This document shows, piece after piece, positions 13,711 to 26,455 of a stretch of 32,601 bases of DNA. The position numbers and the translations under genes are program-made. Numbering within the stretch: position 1 is the stretch's first letter; each line of letters begins with the position of its first letter. This DNA is from Microcaldota archaeon. Its GTDB lineage: Archaea > Micrarchaeota > Micrarchaeia > Norongarragalinales > JACRGE01. The notes under the pieces are model-generated. The model was given only the letters and a program-made list of their open reading frames with translations. It searched no databases and was not told the DNA's origin. The stretch covers positions 1 through 32,601 of the forward strand of contig JACRGE010000094.1 in assembly GCA_016212465.1 (NCBI GenBank), written 5' to 3'.

Positions 13711-14616
13711 CTACCAAGATCTCTGCCCGGTTTGTGGGGGCTGTTGACTATAAGCTGCAGGCATTCCCCCAACTGGCTGGGGTTCTTCAGGTGGTTTCTT
13801 CAAAAATATGTAGAGCACTACACCTATGATCACCGCAACTATAGCAATTACAAGATAAATTATATACTGGTTGTCGTAACCAGTTGGCGGAGCACTTGAC
13901 TGCAGAGTAGTGGTTGGGTTGTTTGTTGAAGTGGTATATGCCGCCCCGCCAGTTCCTTTGTACACGATCTTGAGTGTTTTGTAGGAAAGGGATTGGGGGG
14001 ATGAGTAAACGTAGTCGCTTCCTTCCATCGCATACCCTGTGGGCTCAATGCTTTGAACGCTTCCATGCACCCTTACCCTAACTTCTTTTTGCTGCGCAGA
14101 AACCACGTCATATTTTTGCTGGAAGGTTATGGTGTCACCACTTCTGGCGAGCGAGAATTCGGATTGCCCGCCTGTCTGAGCCAAGTTCTTCAGCTTGTTT
14201 ACATCATCAAAAGAAAGCTTGTACCTTATCGCCAGAGTCCCCTTATCTCCTTCCTCAGAGTACATGCACTCGAGCGTGCTCTTCAACAGGTTCACGGCGT
14301 CCTTCATGTCCTGGAGTTGTCTCTCTTGCGTCTCGTTCTTGTAGCTCGCATTGAAGGACTTGGCCAAGTTGTAAATAGATTCAATCGCGTTCACCGCCGA
14401 GTCAAGGATATCAGTCATCCTCTGTTTGCAATTGCCGATCCACTGGGAGGAAACGTTCGTGGGAGCACCAACGCTGATCTGCTCGTGCCCGTAAGAACCG
14501 TCGCTATACAATTCAATCGTCTCCTTGGTTTCTTCAGGAGTAACTGGAAGCTGCAGACAGCCGAACAAAAACAGTAACCCCCCGCCAATCAGGAACGCAA
14601 AAACAATTTTTTTCAT
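13711..14616 (-). CDS. Putative lipoprotein with C-terminal TM segment
   Basis: N-terminal hydrophobic segment ending LLFLFGC; C-terminal TM YIIYLVIAIVAVIIGVVLYIFL then Pro/Gln-rich tail. Confidence 0.75.
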   Translation of the reverse strand: MKKIVFAFLIGGGLLFLFGCLQLPVTPEETKETIELYSDGSYGHEQISVGAPTNVSSQWIGNCKQRMTDILDSAVNAIESIYNLAKSFNASYKNETQERQLQDMKDAVNLLKSTLECMYSEEGDKGTLAIRYKLSFDDVNKLKNLAQTGGQSEFSLARSGDTITFQQKYDVVSAQQKEVRVRVHGSVQSIEPTGYAMEGSDYVYSSPQSLSYKTLKIVYKGTGGAAYTTSTNNPTTTLQSSAPPTGYDNQYIIYLVIAIVAVIIGVVLYIFLKKPPEEPQPVGGMPAAYSQQPPQTGQRSW

Positions 14617-14989: not shown

Positions 14990-14998
14990 TTTATAAAT
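14990..14998 (+). promoter_or_regulatory. TATA box upstream of the small membrane protein cluster
   Basis: TTTATAAAT about 50 bp upstream of the first small ORF. Confidence 0.55.
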
Positions 14999-15193: not shown

Positions 15194-15307
15194 ATGAAAA
15201 AAATCGTTAAAAAGAGCAAACACAAAGCGACCAAGCATAAAAGCAAAATCCTTGGGCTTGACCTGGTAAAAAAGGGTCTGAAAAAAATCGCGAGCGTCTT
15301 CGCATAA
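15194..15307 (+). CDS. Putative 37-aa Lys-rich amphipathic peptide
   Basis: ATG preceded by AAGGTGAAACTGA; MKKIVKKSKHKATKHKSKILGLDLVKKGLKKIASVFA. 13 Lys in 37 residues. Below the ORF-track cutoff. Confidence 0.55.
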   Translation: MKKIVKKSKHKATKHKSKILGLDLVKKGLKKIASVFA

Positions 15308-15347: not shown

Positions 15348-15728
15348 ATGCCTGTTGAAAAACTGAGTTACATGGGCATGAAGGACCTCAAGGAACTGAA
15401 GAAGGCGGGGGTCATAAAGGAGCCTACTGAAAGGAAGTTCACCCCTACTCCAATGTTCCTTCCAACTGACACCGGGGGTCTGAACATCGCCAATGTAATG
15501 ACCAGGGAGAGTTTTATTCACCGCAATATTGGAATTTGGTTGGAATGGAGGTTCGCCAGAGTGTTTGCAGTCATATTCGGTGTCATAGCCATATTTTTGC
15601 TTACATACAACTTCGTGCTTGCAGCTGTTGCAGGAGCCGTCGCAGGATGGCTCTACGGCAGGTACGTATGGAGGAACTTCTACATCGTAAACCTGCTTGG
15701 TAGAAGGAAGCTCCTTGAGTCAACATAA
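15348..15728 (+). CDS. Small membrane protein, two-helix hairpin, 126 aa (cluster member 1)
   Basis: Hydrophilic N-terminus, hydrophobic hairpin FAVIFGVIAIFLLTYNFVLAAVAGAVAGWLYG, C-terminus GRRKLLEST; GGTG SD. Confidence 0.75.
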   Translation: MPVEKLSYMGMKDLKELKKAGVIKEPTERKFTPTPMFLPTDTGGLNIANVMTRESFIHRNIGIWLEWRFARVFAVIFGVIAIFLLTYNFVLAAVAGAVAGWLYGRYVWRNFYIVNLLGRRKLLEST

Positions 15729-15805
15729 AGAGAGTAGGAAAGAAAACAGGGATAAAACAAAAGAGAACTGCAGACAAGAAAAAATTGAATGAAAGGGGAT
15801 GCTAA

Positions 15806-16195
15806 ATGCAAACAAGAATAATTCCGCAGGTAAGGAACGTGCACTCTGGTGCCCAGCAGCAGATAAGCGTGCTTGCACGGGACCAGCCTAAAAAAGAAGA
15901 GGAGCGGATGAGCACGTTCCTTCCGGTTGAAGTAAAGCCGGAAGTTCCTCCAAACATGAGGATGTGGACTAGGCTAAAGTATTTGGAAGAGTACTTTGGT
16001 TTCTGGAAGTATGGAAAAATATGCAAGCCGTTGAGTGTCGTATTAGGTGCGTTGGGTGTAGTCGCGCTCGGCGTTTTCCCTCTAGGCGGGTTGATTATGC
16101 TCGCAGTTTCAGGAAGGCTGTATAGTCTGGCGTGGTGGTATGACTTCATTATCTACACCTTCGGTAAGTCAAGGACGCTTGTAATAATAGACTAA
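15806..16195 (+). CDS. Small membrane protein, two-helix hairpin, 129 aa (cluster member 2)
   Basis: RLKYLEEYFGFWKYGK then hydrophobic hairpin and FGKSRTLVIID C-terminus. Confidence 0.75.
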   Translation: MQTRIIPQVRNVHSGAQQQISVLARDQPKKEEERMSTFLPVEVKPEVPPNMRMWTRLKYLEEYFGFWKYGKICKPLSVVLGALGVVALGVFPLGGLIMLAVSGRLYSLAWWYDFIIYTFGKSRTLVIID

Positions 16196-16332
16196 AAAAA
16201 CAAGTACCGGAAAGGAACCGGAGATTAAGGAAAAAGCTAGGAATCAATGAAAACTTAAAAACGGAACACAAAAGCAATAAGTTAAAGCCAAAGTGAAAGT
16301 AACGGCAAAAAAATTAAATAAGGGGACGTGAG

Positions 16333-16578
16333 ATGGCAAGAGACCAAAAGAGCATTGACAAAGCGTTGGAGAACCCTCCATTGATAGTGGAGTGGCTTAG
16401 CATGCTAGAGGACTTTGGGTTAATGGATTTCAGGATAATGGATAAGAAAAAGCACGTTCCTTTCTCTGAAGCCATGAATGGAACCCGGCTTGCTTTCCCC
16501 ATCATTCCTGATTGGCTCGTGTGGCTTATCATAATCATTGGTTTGGTGATGACTGCATTGCACTATAACGTAATATGA
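16333..16578 (+). CDS. Small membrane protein with C-terminal TM, 81 aa (cluster member 3)
   Basis: Hydrophilic N-terminus, single hydrophobic tail IIPDWLVWLIIIIGLVMTALHYNVI. Confidence 0.7.
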   Translation: MARDQKSIDKALENPPLIVEWLSMLEDFGLMDFRIMDKKKHVPFSEAMNGTRLAFPIIPDWLVWLIIIIGLVMTALHYNVI

Positions 16579-16588
16579 GGTTTTGGAA

Positions 16589-16873
16589 ATGGATGTGATT
16601 CCGACAACCGTTGTATCAGACCAATATGATGCGTTTCAGAAGATGCAGACCAGGAGAACCTATTTGGAGAGGTTCATCCCGAACTGGAGGGGGCAGTACC
16701 AGACCCGGCTCTATGCATTCGTTTGTTTAATGCTCGGAGTATTTTTTTTCTCCAACTACCCTGCCATTTCAGTTCTCGCATTCGCTGGAGCAGCATATTT
16801 TTATCAAAGGTGGAAGTTCCACGCGTGGCTCATAACAAGACCAAGGACCTTGTATAGTGCGGACCTCAGGTGA
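16589..16873 (+). CDS. Small membrane protein, two-helix hairpin, 95 aa (cluster member 4)
   Basis: YLERFIPNW; YPAISVLAFAGAAYFYQRW; RPRTLYSADLR. ATG 16589 preferred over the TTG at 16583. Confidence 0.75.
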   Translation: MDVIPTTVVSDQYDAFQKMQTRRTYLERFIPNWRGQYQTRLYAFVCLMLGVFFFSNYPAISVLAFAGAAYFYQRWKFHAWLITRPRTLYSADLR

Positions 16874-16878
16874 ATTAA

Positions 16879-17304
16879 ATGAAGGTAAGCGAACTACGTA
16901 ATATTGCAGAGGCAAAAACCGCGCCAGGGCCTACTGGCGTCAGCCCACAGGAAGAAAAAGTGTATGCTCCGATGTTTATTCCCATGGGCTACCAGAAGGG
17001 CGCGGAAACCATGAGATGCGGTGGCGAGACGGTGCCTGCTCACGTAGCGCATGCTTACACGAGGGGCCAGTTGATGGCGGACTGGGTTGACGCAAAGGAT
17101 AAAACAACCATTGGCTCCATATACAAGTCCTTCTTTCAGGCGGTAGTCTGCTTTGTTGCTGCAGTTCTGTCCTATCTTTTTATAAACATCTATGTCGCAG
17201 GCGTTTTCGCATTCCTTTTCGGCTACTATTGGTCCGAAAGGCTTTTGAACGCGTGCTGGGGCACAGCGTGGTTCCAAGGCAAGTCGGTGATTAGGACGAA
17301 GTAA
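16879..17304 (+). CDS. Small membrane protein, two-helix hairpin, 141 aa (cluster member 5)
   Basis: AGGTGAATTAAATG start context; hydrophobic hairpin; C-terminus FQGKSVIRTK. Confidence 0.75.
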   Translation: MKVSELRNIAEAKTAPGPTGVSPQEEKVYAPMFIPMGYQKGAETMRCGGETVPAHVAHAYTRGQLMADWVDAKDKTTIGSIYKSFFQAVVCFVAAVLSYLFINIYVAGVFAFLFGYYWSERLLNACWGTAWFQGKSVIRTK

Positions 17305-17318
17305 GTTTAGGTGTAAAA

Positions 17319-17384
17319 ATGGAGGTTAAGGAACCGTACAAGAATATGAGGGGGGTTAAGGAAATTGTTCTTAAACGAAGTTAA
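17319..17384 (+). CDS. Putative 21-aa microprotein
   Basis: AGGTGTAAAAATG context as for neighbours; MEVKEPYKNMRGVKEIVLKRS. Confidence 0.3.
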   Translation: MEVKEPYKNMRGVKEIVLKRS

Positions 17385-17428
17385 GTAATGTAGCAGGTTT
17401 AAGGACAATTCCATAGGTTCTCAGGTGA

Positions 17429-17728
17429 ATGAATATGGCGGAATATCCCTACGTAAGAGAAACAACCGTATTCTCTGACGCAGACGACACTTTGCTAGCC
17501 CAAGAAACTAGGTGGGACTATCTTCGCACCCACCTTATCCTCTGGAAGGACTCCATCAGGTTCAAGTGGTACTCCATTATCCTTGCAATCGTTGGAATGG
17601 TTTTCCTGACGATACTCCCGGCTGTCTCCGTGCTTGCCTTCGCTGGAGTCTTTTACTACTACGTGCTGAGGATACAGCGGTTCACCAGGCTCTCCAAGTC
17701 CGTAAGGAAAGTCATCGTAGGCCACTAG
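17429..17728 (+). CDS. Small membrane protein, two-helix hairpin, 99 aa (cluster member 6)
   Basis: AGGTGAATGAATATG start context; LPAVSVLAFAGVFYYYVLR matches member 4; C-terminus LSKSVRKVIVGH. Confidence 0.75.
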   Translation: MNMAEYPYVRETTVFSDADDTLLAQETRWDYLRTHLILWKDSIRFKWYSIILAIVGMVFLTILPAVSVLAFAGVFYYYVLRIQRFTRLSKSVRKVIVGH

Positions 17729-18057: not shown

Positions 18058-19641
18058 ATGCCTAGGTTCATTTTCGTAACTGGCGGGGTGCTGAGCTCGC
18101 TCGGCAAAGGAACCTTTACCTCCTCCCTCGCAAAAGTGCTGAAGTCGTCTGGAGTCAATGTCTCGGCTATGAAAATAGACCCCTATTTGAACTGTGATGC
18201 GGGGACCTTGAATCCGTTCGAGCACGGCGAAGTATTCGTGACGCAAGATGGCTTTGAGTGTGACCTGGATTTAGGCACGTATGAGCGATTTCTTGGAATC
18301 TTTGCAAAGAAGGAACAGAACCTCATGATGGGCACGGTTTACAAAACTGTAATAGAAAAAGAGAGGCGGGGCGAATTCCTTGGAAAGACGCTTCAACTGA
18401 TTCCACATGTTACAAATGAGATAAAGTCCCGCATAAAAAAAGCAGCTCAAGTTACTGGTTGTGACGTGCTCGTCGTGGAGATAGGTGGAACGGTGGGAGA
18501 CATCGAGTCTGAGATTGTGCTTGAGGCCATTCGACAGATGAAATATGAAAACCCGAGTGAAGTTCTTTTCATCCACCTTGCTTTGGTTCCAACCATCATC
18601 ACTGGCGAGCAGAAGACGAAGCCCATGCAGCACTCAGTCCGAGCTTTGCTTGCTCGAGGCATAGCACCTGACGCGCTTATAGCGAGGTCAGAGAGGGAGC
18701 TGAAGGAAAAAACCAAGGAGAAGATTGCCTTGTTTTGCAATGTATTACCCGAGGCTGTTTTCAGCTTCCCGAATGTAGAACTTGTATACGAGTTGCCGTT
18801 CATCCTGAGGGACCAAGAAGTGATGAAGCCGATTGCAGAGAAATTTAAACTGGAGCTAAGGGAAATGAACATGAATGAGTGGAAGGCTATTGTTGAGAAG
18901 TTCAAAAGGATGAAGGAAGATAAGTTGATTGGGGTTGTAGGGAAATACGCGACTACGAAGGACACGTACATGAGCATTTTTGAGGCCTTGATGCACGCGG
19001 GCATAAGCAATGGCGTGAAAGTAAAGGCGAATTTGATTGATTCGGAGGAGATAGAGAAAAAACCAGATAAAATAAAACTCAGTGACTATGACGGCTTCCT
19101 GATTCCAGGCGGTTTCGGCGGTCGTGGCACGGAGGGGAAGATTGAGGTAATAAAATACGCGCGTGAAAATGATGTTCCCCTTTTTGGGATATGCTTTGGA
19201 TTCCAGTTGAGTGTGATAGAGTTCTGCAGGAACGTACTTGAATGGCGTGACGCGGCTTCGACCGAGTTTTCTCAAGAAACAACTCATCCTGTCATAGACT
19301 TGTTGCCTGAGCAAAGGAACATCAAGGAATTGGGTGGTACGATGAGGCTAGGAGTCCAGAAAACGATTTTGGATGACGGAACCAAAGCCCTGAACCTTTA
19401 TGGCGAAAAAGAGATTCTGAAGCGGCACCGGCATAGATTTGAGGTGAATCCTGGTTTCATCTCCGATATTGAGAAAGCGGGCATGCGTTTCTCAGGAAAA
19501 AGCGAAGACGGCGTGAAAATGGAGGTCTTGGAATTGAAGAACCACCAGTATTTCCTAGGCAGCCAATTCCATCCCGAATTCGATTCACGGCTTGAAAAAC
19601 CAGAGCCGCTTTTCCATGGTTTAGTGAAGGCAACCCTATAA
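18058..19641 (+). CDS. pyrG: CTP synthase
   Basis: FVTGGVLSSLGKG; MKIDPYLNCDAGTLNPFEHGEVFVTQDG; glutaminase FGICFGFQ and FHPEFDSR. TATA-like ACTTATATCA near 17995-18004. Confidence 0.95.
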   Translation: MPRFIFVTGGVLSSLGKGTFTSSLAKVLKSSGVNVSAMKIDPYLNCDAGTLNPFEHGEVFVTQDGFECDLDLGTYERFLGIFAKKEQNLMMGTVYKTVIEKERRGEFLGKTLQLIPHVTNEIKSRIKKAAQVTGCDVLVVEIGGTVGDIESEIVLEAIRQMKYENPSEVLFIHLALVPTIITGEQKTKPMQHSVRALLARGIAPDALIARSERELKEKTKEKIALFCNVLPEAVFSFPNVELVYELPFILRDQEVMKPIAEKFKLELREMNMNEWKAIVEKFKRMKEDKLIGVVGKYATTKDTYMSIFEALMHAGISNGVKVKANLIDSEEIEKKPDKIKLSDYDGFLIPGGFGGRGTEGKIEVIKYARENDVPLFGICFGFQLSVIEFCRNVLEWRDAASTEFSQETTHPVIDLLPEQRNIKELGGTMRLGVQKTILDDGTKALNLYGEKEILKRHRHRFEVNPGFISDIEKAGMRFSGKSEDGVKMEVLELKNHQYFLGSQFHPEFDSRLEKPEPLFHGLVKATL

Positions 19642-25130: not shown

Positions 25131-25562
25131 GTGGGTGAACGACAATACCCTGAACCAGCTGTAGGCGCGCTGGTGTTGAACAAGAGAAATGAACTGCTTT
25201 TGATAAAGTCCGGCAAGTGGGGTGGGAGATACGTGATTCCAGGCGGGCATGTAGAGTTAGGTGAAACGATTGAGCAGGCTGTAAAACGAGAGGTATTGGA
25301 AGAGGTTGGGCTTCGCGTCAAGGTTTCGGCCTTTCTCATGCTGCAGGAAGCGATTTTTCCGACAGAGTTCCAAAAAAAGAAACATTTTATTTTTTTAGAC
25401 TACGTGTGCGAGGCGCTGGGAGACGAAATAAAAATTGATGAAAAAGAAGCACAGGAAGCAGTCTGGGTTTCACCAAAAGCCGCGCTCAAATTAAATCTAA
25501 ATTCATCTACTAGGAGAGCAGTAATAGAATTTATCCGTGGCAAAACGGAAGTGGTTGAATGA
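25131..25562 (+). CDS. Nudix hydrolase
   Basis: Nudix box GHVELGETIEQAVKREVLEEVGL (Gx5Ex7REUxEExGU). Confidence 0.93.
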   Translation: MGERQYPEPAVGALVLNKRNELLLIKSGKWGGRYVIPGGHVELGETIEQAVKREVLEEVGLRVKVSAFLMLQEAIFPTEFQKKKHFIFLDYVCEALGDEIKIDEKEAQEAVWVSPKAALKLNLNSSTRRAVIEFIRGKTEVVE

Positions 25563-26455
25563 AGGCGAAAATCGTTTTGGACTCGAAGGCGTTGGACACA
25601 GAATTAGTGGAAAGCGGTTCTCTTTCTGTCTTGTCGGAAGACCGGCTCAGGATACTGAAAGCCTTGAATGAGCCAAAATACCCGGCAGAGTTGGCGAAGG
25701 AGTTGAAGATGCAGGTTCAAACCGTCTACTACCATATTCGCCTGTTGAATGAAGCAAAGCTTATTGAACTGGTTGAATACGAGGAAACCGGAGGGGCTCT
25801 TGCAAAGAAATACGTTGCTAAAGGAGACGCACTTTCCATCATTTTGAACGAGAAATGGAAGCCGTTTTCTTTCAGGGCGGGAGTGTCACCTCCAACTCTC
25901 TTAAAGCACTTTATTTCAGGCAATTTTTTTGACGGCAGAATAGTGGTAGGCTCTCCTGATCCGCACGGAAAATACCGTTCCCGTGGTTCAGAATTCTGTT
26001 CCCTTGAATTTGCAATGTACCTCGGAAGTTTTGCTTCCTTTTCCTATCCCCTATTCTATCTAGATACAGAGATTGATGAGCGCATGAAAAAAGATAATCT
26101 GGTTTTGTTCGGCGGGCCAAAGGTGGATACCATAGTCGACGAAATCAATTCCTTTCTCCCCATTTACTTCGAGGAAAAGACTTTCGCGGTGATCTCGAAA
26201 CTCTCCGGAAAGAAATACGAGGAAAACGTCGGAGTGGTTGAATTAATTGACAACCCATTCAACAAAAGCAATAAGATTCTGCTTATCGCGGGTTTGAACC
26301 ACATTTCCACCCGCGTGGCAGTTCTTTCCCTTATAAAGCAACCCAAGAAAATAGAAGGAGGCAACCTCTACAACCCGAAAGTGATTGCGAAAGTGGTTGA
26401 AGGCTTTGATGAAGATGGAGACGGAATCGCCGAAGTTGTTGATATACTAGAGTAA
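25559..26455 (+). CDS. Winged-HTH (ArsR-like) protein fused to a C-terminal S-layer-like domain
   Basis: LSEDRLRILKALNEPKYPAELAKELKMQVQTVYYHIRLLNEAKLIEL wHTH; C-terminal NLVLFGGPKVDTIV...ILLIAGLNHISTRVAVLSL and DEDGDGIAEVVDIL. 4-bp overlap with Nudix. Confidence 0.75.
   Translation: MKAKIVLDSKALDTELVESGSLSVLSEDRLRILKALNEPKYPAELAKELKMQVQTVYYHIRLLNEAKLIELVEYEETGGALAKKYVAKGDALSIILNEKWKPFSFRAGVSPPTLLKHFISGNFFDGRIVVGSPDPHGKYRSRGSEFCSLEFAMYLGSFASFSYPLFYLDTEIDERMKKDNLVLFGGPKVDTIVDEINSFLPIYFEEKTFAVISKLSGKKYEENVGVVELIDNPFNKSNKILLIAGLNHISTRVAVLSLIKQPKKIEGGNLYNPKVIAKVVEGFDEDGDGIAEVVDILE

Follow-up and report, generated by a model that had tools for sequence, protein, structure and literature searches.

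Several described families of small membrane proteins share features with the gene cluster analysed here. The CURT1 proteins occur as several paralogues in one organism (CURT1A-D), have two transmembrane (TM) helices along with cytoplasmic helices, and have been described as semireticulons whose oligomerisation has been suggested (PMC9950537). In reticulons, paired hydrophobic hairpins are thought to be wedges (PMC9950537, PMC3918113). The reticulon homology domain is eukaryotic, spans about 200 aa and carries two hairpins per chain. A short two-TM membrane subunit is also what defines the likeness of the cluster to VirB3/TrbD (PF05101). MscL is a protein of about 100-140 aa with two TM helices and both ends inside; it has a longer outer loop and forms a homo-oligomer.

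The original prediction placed six same-strand ORFs of 81-141 aa at positions 15348-17728 of the window (the whole stretch of 32,601 nucleotides that was analysed, from a Micrarchaeota MAG of about 1.2 Mb in 104 contigs, which by its relatives, LFW-144_1 among them, is taken to belong to the order Ca. Norongarragalinales), and these coordinates are borne out. The genes, and a candidate promoter ahead of them, are as follows.

14990-14997, + strand: TATA-box-like pattern match, TTTATAAA, candidate archaeal promoter of the operon
15348-15728, + strand: P1, helical-hairpin membrane protein of 126 aa, with orthologues in 26 complete clusters and profile homology to P5 and P2
15806-16195, + strand: P2, helical-hairpin membrane protein of 129 aa, with profile homology to P6/P4 (E 5.9e-18)
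16333-16578, + strand: P3, protein of 81 aa with an LEDxG...LPD motif and one C-terminal TM helix
16583-16873, + strand: P4, P6-like hairpin protein of 96 aa, an additional copy
16879-17304, + strand: P5, protein of 141 aa with a long N-terminal tail followed by a hairpin
17429-17728, + strand: P6, hairpin protein of 99 aa

The start of P4 is likely the ATG at 16589, which is favoured over the TTG at 16583, and that of P6 is likely the ATG at 17435; an internal start is possible in P2 at 15908. The TATA-like pattern occurs eight times in the window, counting both strands, versus 1.7 matches expected by chance. Scans for sigma-70 type promoters and for terminators, a kind of scan whose coverage archaeal promoters fall outside, returned nothing above chance. 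Upstream and divergent lies an LppM-domain lipoprotein-like gene (13711-14616, - strand), and CTP synthase lies downstream (18058-19641, + strand). The operon leader also holds a strongly basic ORF of 37 aa (15194-15307, + strand) with a ribosome-binding-like site; conservation in relatives was looked for, and was absent, both for this ORF and for a 21-aa ORF between P5 and P6.

One architecture had been attributed to five of the members, and sequence and profile homology agree on this for P1, P2, P4, P5 and P6. Using hhalign, P5 was aligned with P1 (E 3.6e-18), P2 with P6/P4 (E 5.9e-18), P2 with P1 (E 1.4e-10) and P5 with P6 (E 5e-8), showing common ancestry of these five proteins at the level of their sequence profiles. 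Profile comparison of P3 with the other members gave no evidence of homology. In the paralogues an invariant or nearly invariant Arg precedes the first helix. A near-invariant Arg or Lys stands 5-8 residues before the C-terminus, and the few residues beyond it are particular to each family: LLEST/LLEGT in P1, LVLVD in P2, KGKALxxT in P5 and VMIGH in P6. In the window, P1 ends in ...RRKLLEST and P2 in ...SRTLVIID. The YL-E/R...W motif proposed to precede the membrane holds in part: in the form [T]R-x-x-[YF]-L...W it is clear in P2, P4 and P6, whereas it is varied in P1 (R-x-x-F) and leaves only the Arg in P5. Similarly, the single C-terminal TM helix described for member 3 is present in the P3 of the window, together with the conserved LEDxG...LPD segment, but the P3 orthologues of family f7 have two hydrophobic segments.

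A tree of 108 sequences separates P1, P2 and P5 each by a single branch (support values of 74, 99 and 99, respectively), and P6 nearly so, needing two changes; the inner branching is uncertain because the alignment is short, with only 90 columns. Since each paralogue is set apart in this way, or nearly so, the duplications are older than the families of the order: the ancient paralogues P1, P2, P5 and P6 had already separated when the order began to diversify.

Structure prediction upheld the two-helix hairpin for the two members P5 and P6. AlphaFold2 modelled antiparallel helices at residues 78-101 and 104-130 of P5 and at residues 26-60 and 62-88 of P6 (numbered from ATG 17435), with hairpin-core confidence above 90, a turn of 1-2 residues and N-terminal tails that are mostly of low confidence. 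The charge-free stretch, both legs together, has a median of 33 residues in P1, 27 in P2, 35 in P5 and 33 in P6. Two full passes through the membrane would normally take more residues than this, and P2 falls the furthest short. In a simple flank-charge scan that merges both helices into one segment, K/R exceed D/E on both sides of the hairpin, except on the N flank of P5 before TM1; by the positive-inside rule both ends should therefore be inside. The paralogues are thus predicted to be N-in/C-in, with an outer loop of few residues that is almost absent. Small residues are found in TM2 of the hairpins. By AlphaFold2 and the charge pattern, the cluster proteins are predicted to have the layout of CURT1, that is, a tight two-TM hairpin with both tails on one side. 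A CURT1-type N-terminal amphipathic helix was also looked for; amphipathicity of the pre-TM helix is weak to moderate in P6 and P2 and absent in P1.

A two-TM, N-in/C-in layout in paralogous subunits that are kept as a full set might alternatively be read as a hetero-oligomeric channel or transporter, in which the subunits would form a ring of MscL-like topology with each at a fixed position. The cluster proteins resemble MscL in size, in their two TM helices and in their predicted N-in/C-in ends, though the MscL loop is longer and MscL is homo-oligomeric. However, polar residues are not conserved inside the helices of the cluster proteins, and no significant fold match to channels was obtained. 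The MscL profile PF01741 has no match at the cluster, and genome G001 encodes an ordinary MscL elsewhere. We consider a channel or transporter unlikely.

No His or Cys that might mark a cofactor site is conserved in the paralogue alignments. Most of the near-invariant positions hold Arg, Tyr, Gly, Trp, Pro or Ala, and P2 has one Glu among them. This bears on the idea that the proteins are lineage-specific subunits of an energy-transducing membrane complex, which would account for the abundance of small hairpin subunits, for their interfacial Trp and aromatic residues and for faint sequence and structure matches to chains of cytochrome oxidase and respiratory supercomplexes. Those matches are insignificant (E above 1), ligand residues are lacking and no catalytic gene is conserved nearby, making such a role highly unlikely.

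Several f4 and f8 genomes encode P2 and P5 proteins whose N-terminal tails abound in His and Gly (for example, HGGGHGGHAPH), and these tails are possibly metal-binding. Examples are located as follows.

L065:10498-10986, L066:8819-9262 and L077:15587-16228: His/Gly-rich tails, P2 and P5 of f4/f8 genomes

When ORFs were assigned with iterated HMMs, P1-P2-P3-[P4]-P5-P6 was found complete, on one strand and colinear in 26 of the order's 30 genomes, one of which (G019) has a strongly diverged copy, so that the gene-order conservation at issue in the original prediction is indeed present among related archaeal genomes. The core operon P1-P2-P3-P5-P6 has the same order in all 26 complete loci, and wherever the cluster occurs P3 invariably sits between P2 and P5 or P4. 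In two further genomes the cluster is split or cut by contig ends: both halves lie at contig ends in G001, and in G026 P5-P6 occupy a contig of 1.9 kb. The remaining two assemblies are incomplete, with one weak relative only in G005 and no cluster member found in G022. No lone subunit in an uninterrupted locus was seen in the 30 genomes, unless the weak relative in G005 is counted. A single-sequence search recovered P5 in 26 of the 30 genomes. With profiles, P5 was found in 28/30 genomes of the order versus 0/217 genomes from other orders of the class, and P6/P4 in 29/30 (one of them weak) versus 0/217. The additional P6-like copy (P4 type) is confined to families f1 and f2 (the window, G001, G008, G016 and G012), and in G012 it follows P5 instead of preceding it. 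Neighbouring genes are often separated by just 1-16 bp, and several genomes have 4-bp overlaps; dN/dS of about 0.04-0.4 for all five core genes, where estimable, reveals purifying selection. The ORFs are therefore real genes and not chance ones, given their colinear orthologues in 26 complete loci and the low dN/dS.

Two observations concern individual genomes. In G005 the weak P4/P6 relative (E about 1e-5) and another membrane-like ORF lie side by side (L166:1215-1751, - strand, and 746-1237, - strand) in a neighbourhood of mevalonate-pathway-type genes; this relative may represent the cluster in reduced or relocated form. In addition, L068 (G017, family f4) and L069 (G012 contig 41, family f2) carry almost the same cluster, yet a diverged copy belonging to G012 itself is present on its contig 50, which points to a misbinned contig in one of the two MAGs.

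Searches of Pfam, NCBIfam, PHROGs, PADLOC and PDB sequences returned scattered weak matches only, none of which was common to orthologues, and the PADLOC models of anti-phage defence had no match to the cluster. No relative of the cluster proteins was found among IMG/VR viral contigs, phages and plasmids, and no Foldseek match to a solved (PDB) or viral (BFVD) structure reached an E below 0.001. Likewise, such a cluster is not mentioned in the passages on Norongarragalinales of PMC12892359 and PMC8561730. In these profile searches and in structure comparison with PDB and BFVD the protein families have no relative, so the complex that they would form is probably one not described before. Thus, on examination, the members neither proved homologous to separate unrelated families nor lacked co-conservation. 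The same searches bear on a viral source. Short hydrophobic two-helix hairpins in several paralogues bring to mind domesticated virion membrane proteins, for example the hydrophobic hairpin coat proteins of spindle-shaped viruses, but the failure to find a convincing PHROGs match, a relative in IMG/VR contigs, phages or plasmids, or a significant BFVD fold, along with a stable chromosomal context by RadA and CTP synthase in several families, makes this origin exceedingly improbable.

The reading that we favour, at a probability of roughly 0.36, is that the cluster encodes an obligate, order-specific complex of hairpin proteins with a structural role, bending or scaffolding the membrane. That it encodes one obligate hetero-oligomeric membrane complex is in itself probable, because full sets stay together and the paralogues keep their identity and order. 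A hetero-oligomeric membrane complex had indeed been suggested, and nearly all-or-none retention, fixed order, tight gaps with 4-bp overlaps and four ancient paralogues all speak for it. The complex would reside in the cytoplasmic membrane and be specific to Ca. Norongarragalinales. Each hairpin would insert N-in/C-in with almost nothing outside, and the paralogues would occupy defined adjoining positions in one assembly, packed through the small residues of TM2 and the cytoplasmic tails, with P3 as a further, non-homologous subunit. The assembly would bend or scaffold the membrane as semireticulon (CURT1-like) hairpin proteins do, with no catalysis.

A structural, membrane-shaping role for the complex is a tentative proposal, based on modelled structure and on analogy. 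It is suggested by short paired hairpins with small-residue TM2 and no polar loop, by the absence of conserved catalytic or ligand residues together with several paralogues as in CURT1 (PMC9950537), and by a link to the S-layer in one family (see below). In being short and paired, the predicted hairpin of the cluster resembles published wedge segments of reticulons and CURT1 (PMC9950537), and small two-TM proteins with several paralogues per organism are likewise seen in CURT1/CAAD (PF14159). In contrast to CURT1/CAAD, the cluster proteins are encoded in one fixed-order operon, have a common Arg/C-terminal signature and are accompanied by the non-homologous P3; membrane curvature is predicted from shape only, and channels and accessory subunits can contain tight hairpins too. 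In five genomes the PF14159 CAAD profile, searched at E up to 10, did not match the cluster and had only weak matches elsewhere, and Pfam scans of the members gave no CAAD match. Whereas the reticulon homology domain has two hairpins in each chain, the cluster proteins have one each, and no Pfam match to that domain was found among the members.

More specifically, the complex might be a membrane-shaping coat of four or five positionally distinct paralogous hairpin subunits that arose at the root of the order, a version that we hold to be doubtful. If true, these cells would have an archaeal counterpart of the reticulon and CURT1 systems that helps to define their envelope. As a duplicated set in fixed order that is nearly order-wide and was not found outside the order, the cluster should be important to the cells that carry it. 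For a lineage of DPANN archaea, the order has lipid and nucleotide biosynthesis that is predicted to be unusually complete (PMC12892359); an order-specific membrane machine may therefore bear on how the envelope works. With five or six genes in about 2.4 kb, the cluster offers a small target for the study of archaeal membrane architecture.

The genes surrounding the cluster were also informative. A secretion or pilus platform had been offered as an example of what the complex might be, and the cluster proteins could accordingly be accessory membrane subunits in a machine for secretion, pili or translocation; its motor would then be encoded elsewhere. Small two-TM proteins do recall VirB3/TrbD, and PMC8561730 reports type IV pili for LFW-144_1, the type MAG of Ca. 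Norongarragalina meridionalis. However, the VirB3 profile PF05101 has no match at the cluster genes, which speaks against the VirB3/TrbD likeness as kinship, and the neighbour tables contain no VirB4-like ATPase or other T4SS gene beside the cluster and no conserved adjoining ATPase, prepilin, peptidase or conjugation gene. A secretion or pilus platform did not find support in these results, and we regard accessory subunits of such a machine as quite unlikely.

In 12 loci a CTP synthase gene of the same strand lies downstream of the cluster, and a RadA or RadA-like gene lies upstream in several. An ancestral link to CTP synthase was considered and rejected: small membrane genes of this kind are missing from the CTP synthase loci examined in other orders, and for this reason the vicinity looks like a stable chromosomal place and not a functional link. 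In G011 only, the cluster is immediately preceded by two FtsZ genes with the same orientation (L067:5830-8195, + strand).

In family f4 the cluster is divergent to an S-layer gene at a distance of 300-520 bp in 8/8 genomes with enough upstream sequence, the identity of this gene being confirmed by the PF05124 profile in two of the eight. This arrangement raises the possibility of an S-layer associated envelope platform, a complex that would anchor, export or space the S-layer lattice, and the absence of a C-terminal TM anchor from the S-layer proteins would fit such a role. Codon usage fits as well: among the local genes of f4, none or almost none is closer to the S-layer gene than the cluster, and in the window's genome it is very close to the S-layer gene, which sits on another contig. 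This closeness is weaker in G007 and absent in G001, and the adjacency itself is seen in one family (f4) only. Moreover, PF05124 is class-wide (125/148 genomes) whereas the cluster is order-specific, so the adjacency is a local feature and not a co-occurrence, and almost nothing of the cluster proteins is predicted to be exposed outside. An S-layer platform is, in our estimation, also an unlikely account of the cluster. The cluster may be an envelope scaffold, as named in the original prediction, with a divergent S-layer gene in one family and yet a predicted outside loop of few residues. Codon usage gives a mixed picture of high expression: the sign is striking in f4 loci, and genome-wide it is supported for the window's genome but fades in G007 and disappears in G001; the ribosomal-protein reference had little power in this comparison.

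Apart from the cluster, the window encodes a 298-aa protein (25559-26455, + strand) in which an ArsR-type HTH (PF12840/PF01022) is fused to a partial S_layer_C match, covering the C-terminal half of PF05124 (E 4e-10). Proteins of about 300 aa with the same partial PF05124 match are found in many Micrarchaeia. This is an unexpected instance of a DNA-binding protein having a domain in common with the S-layer protein.
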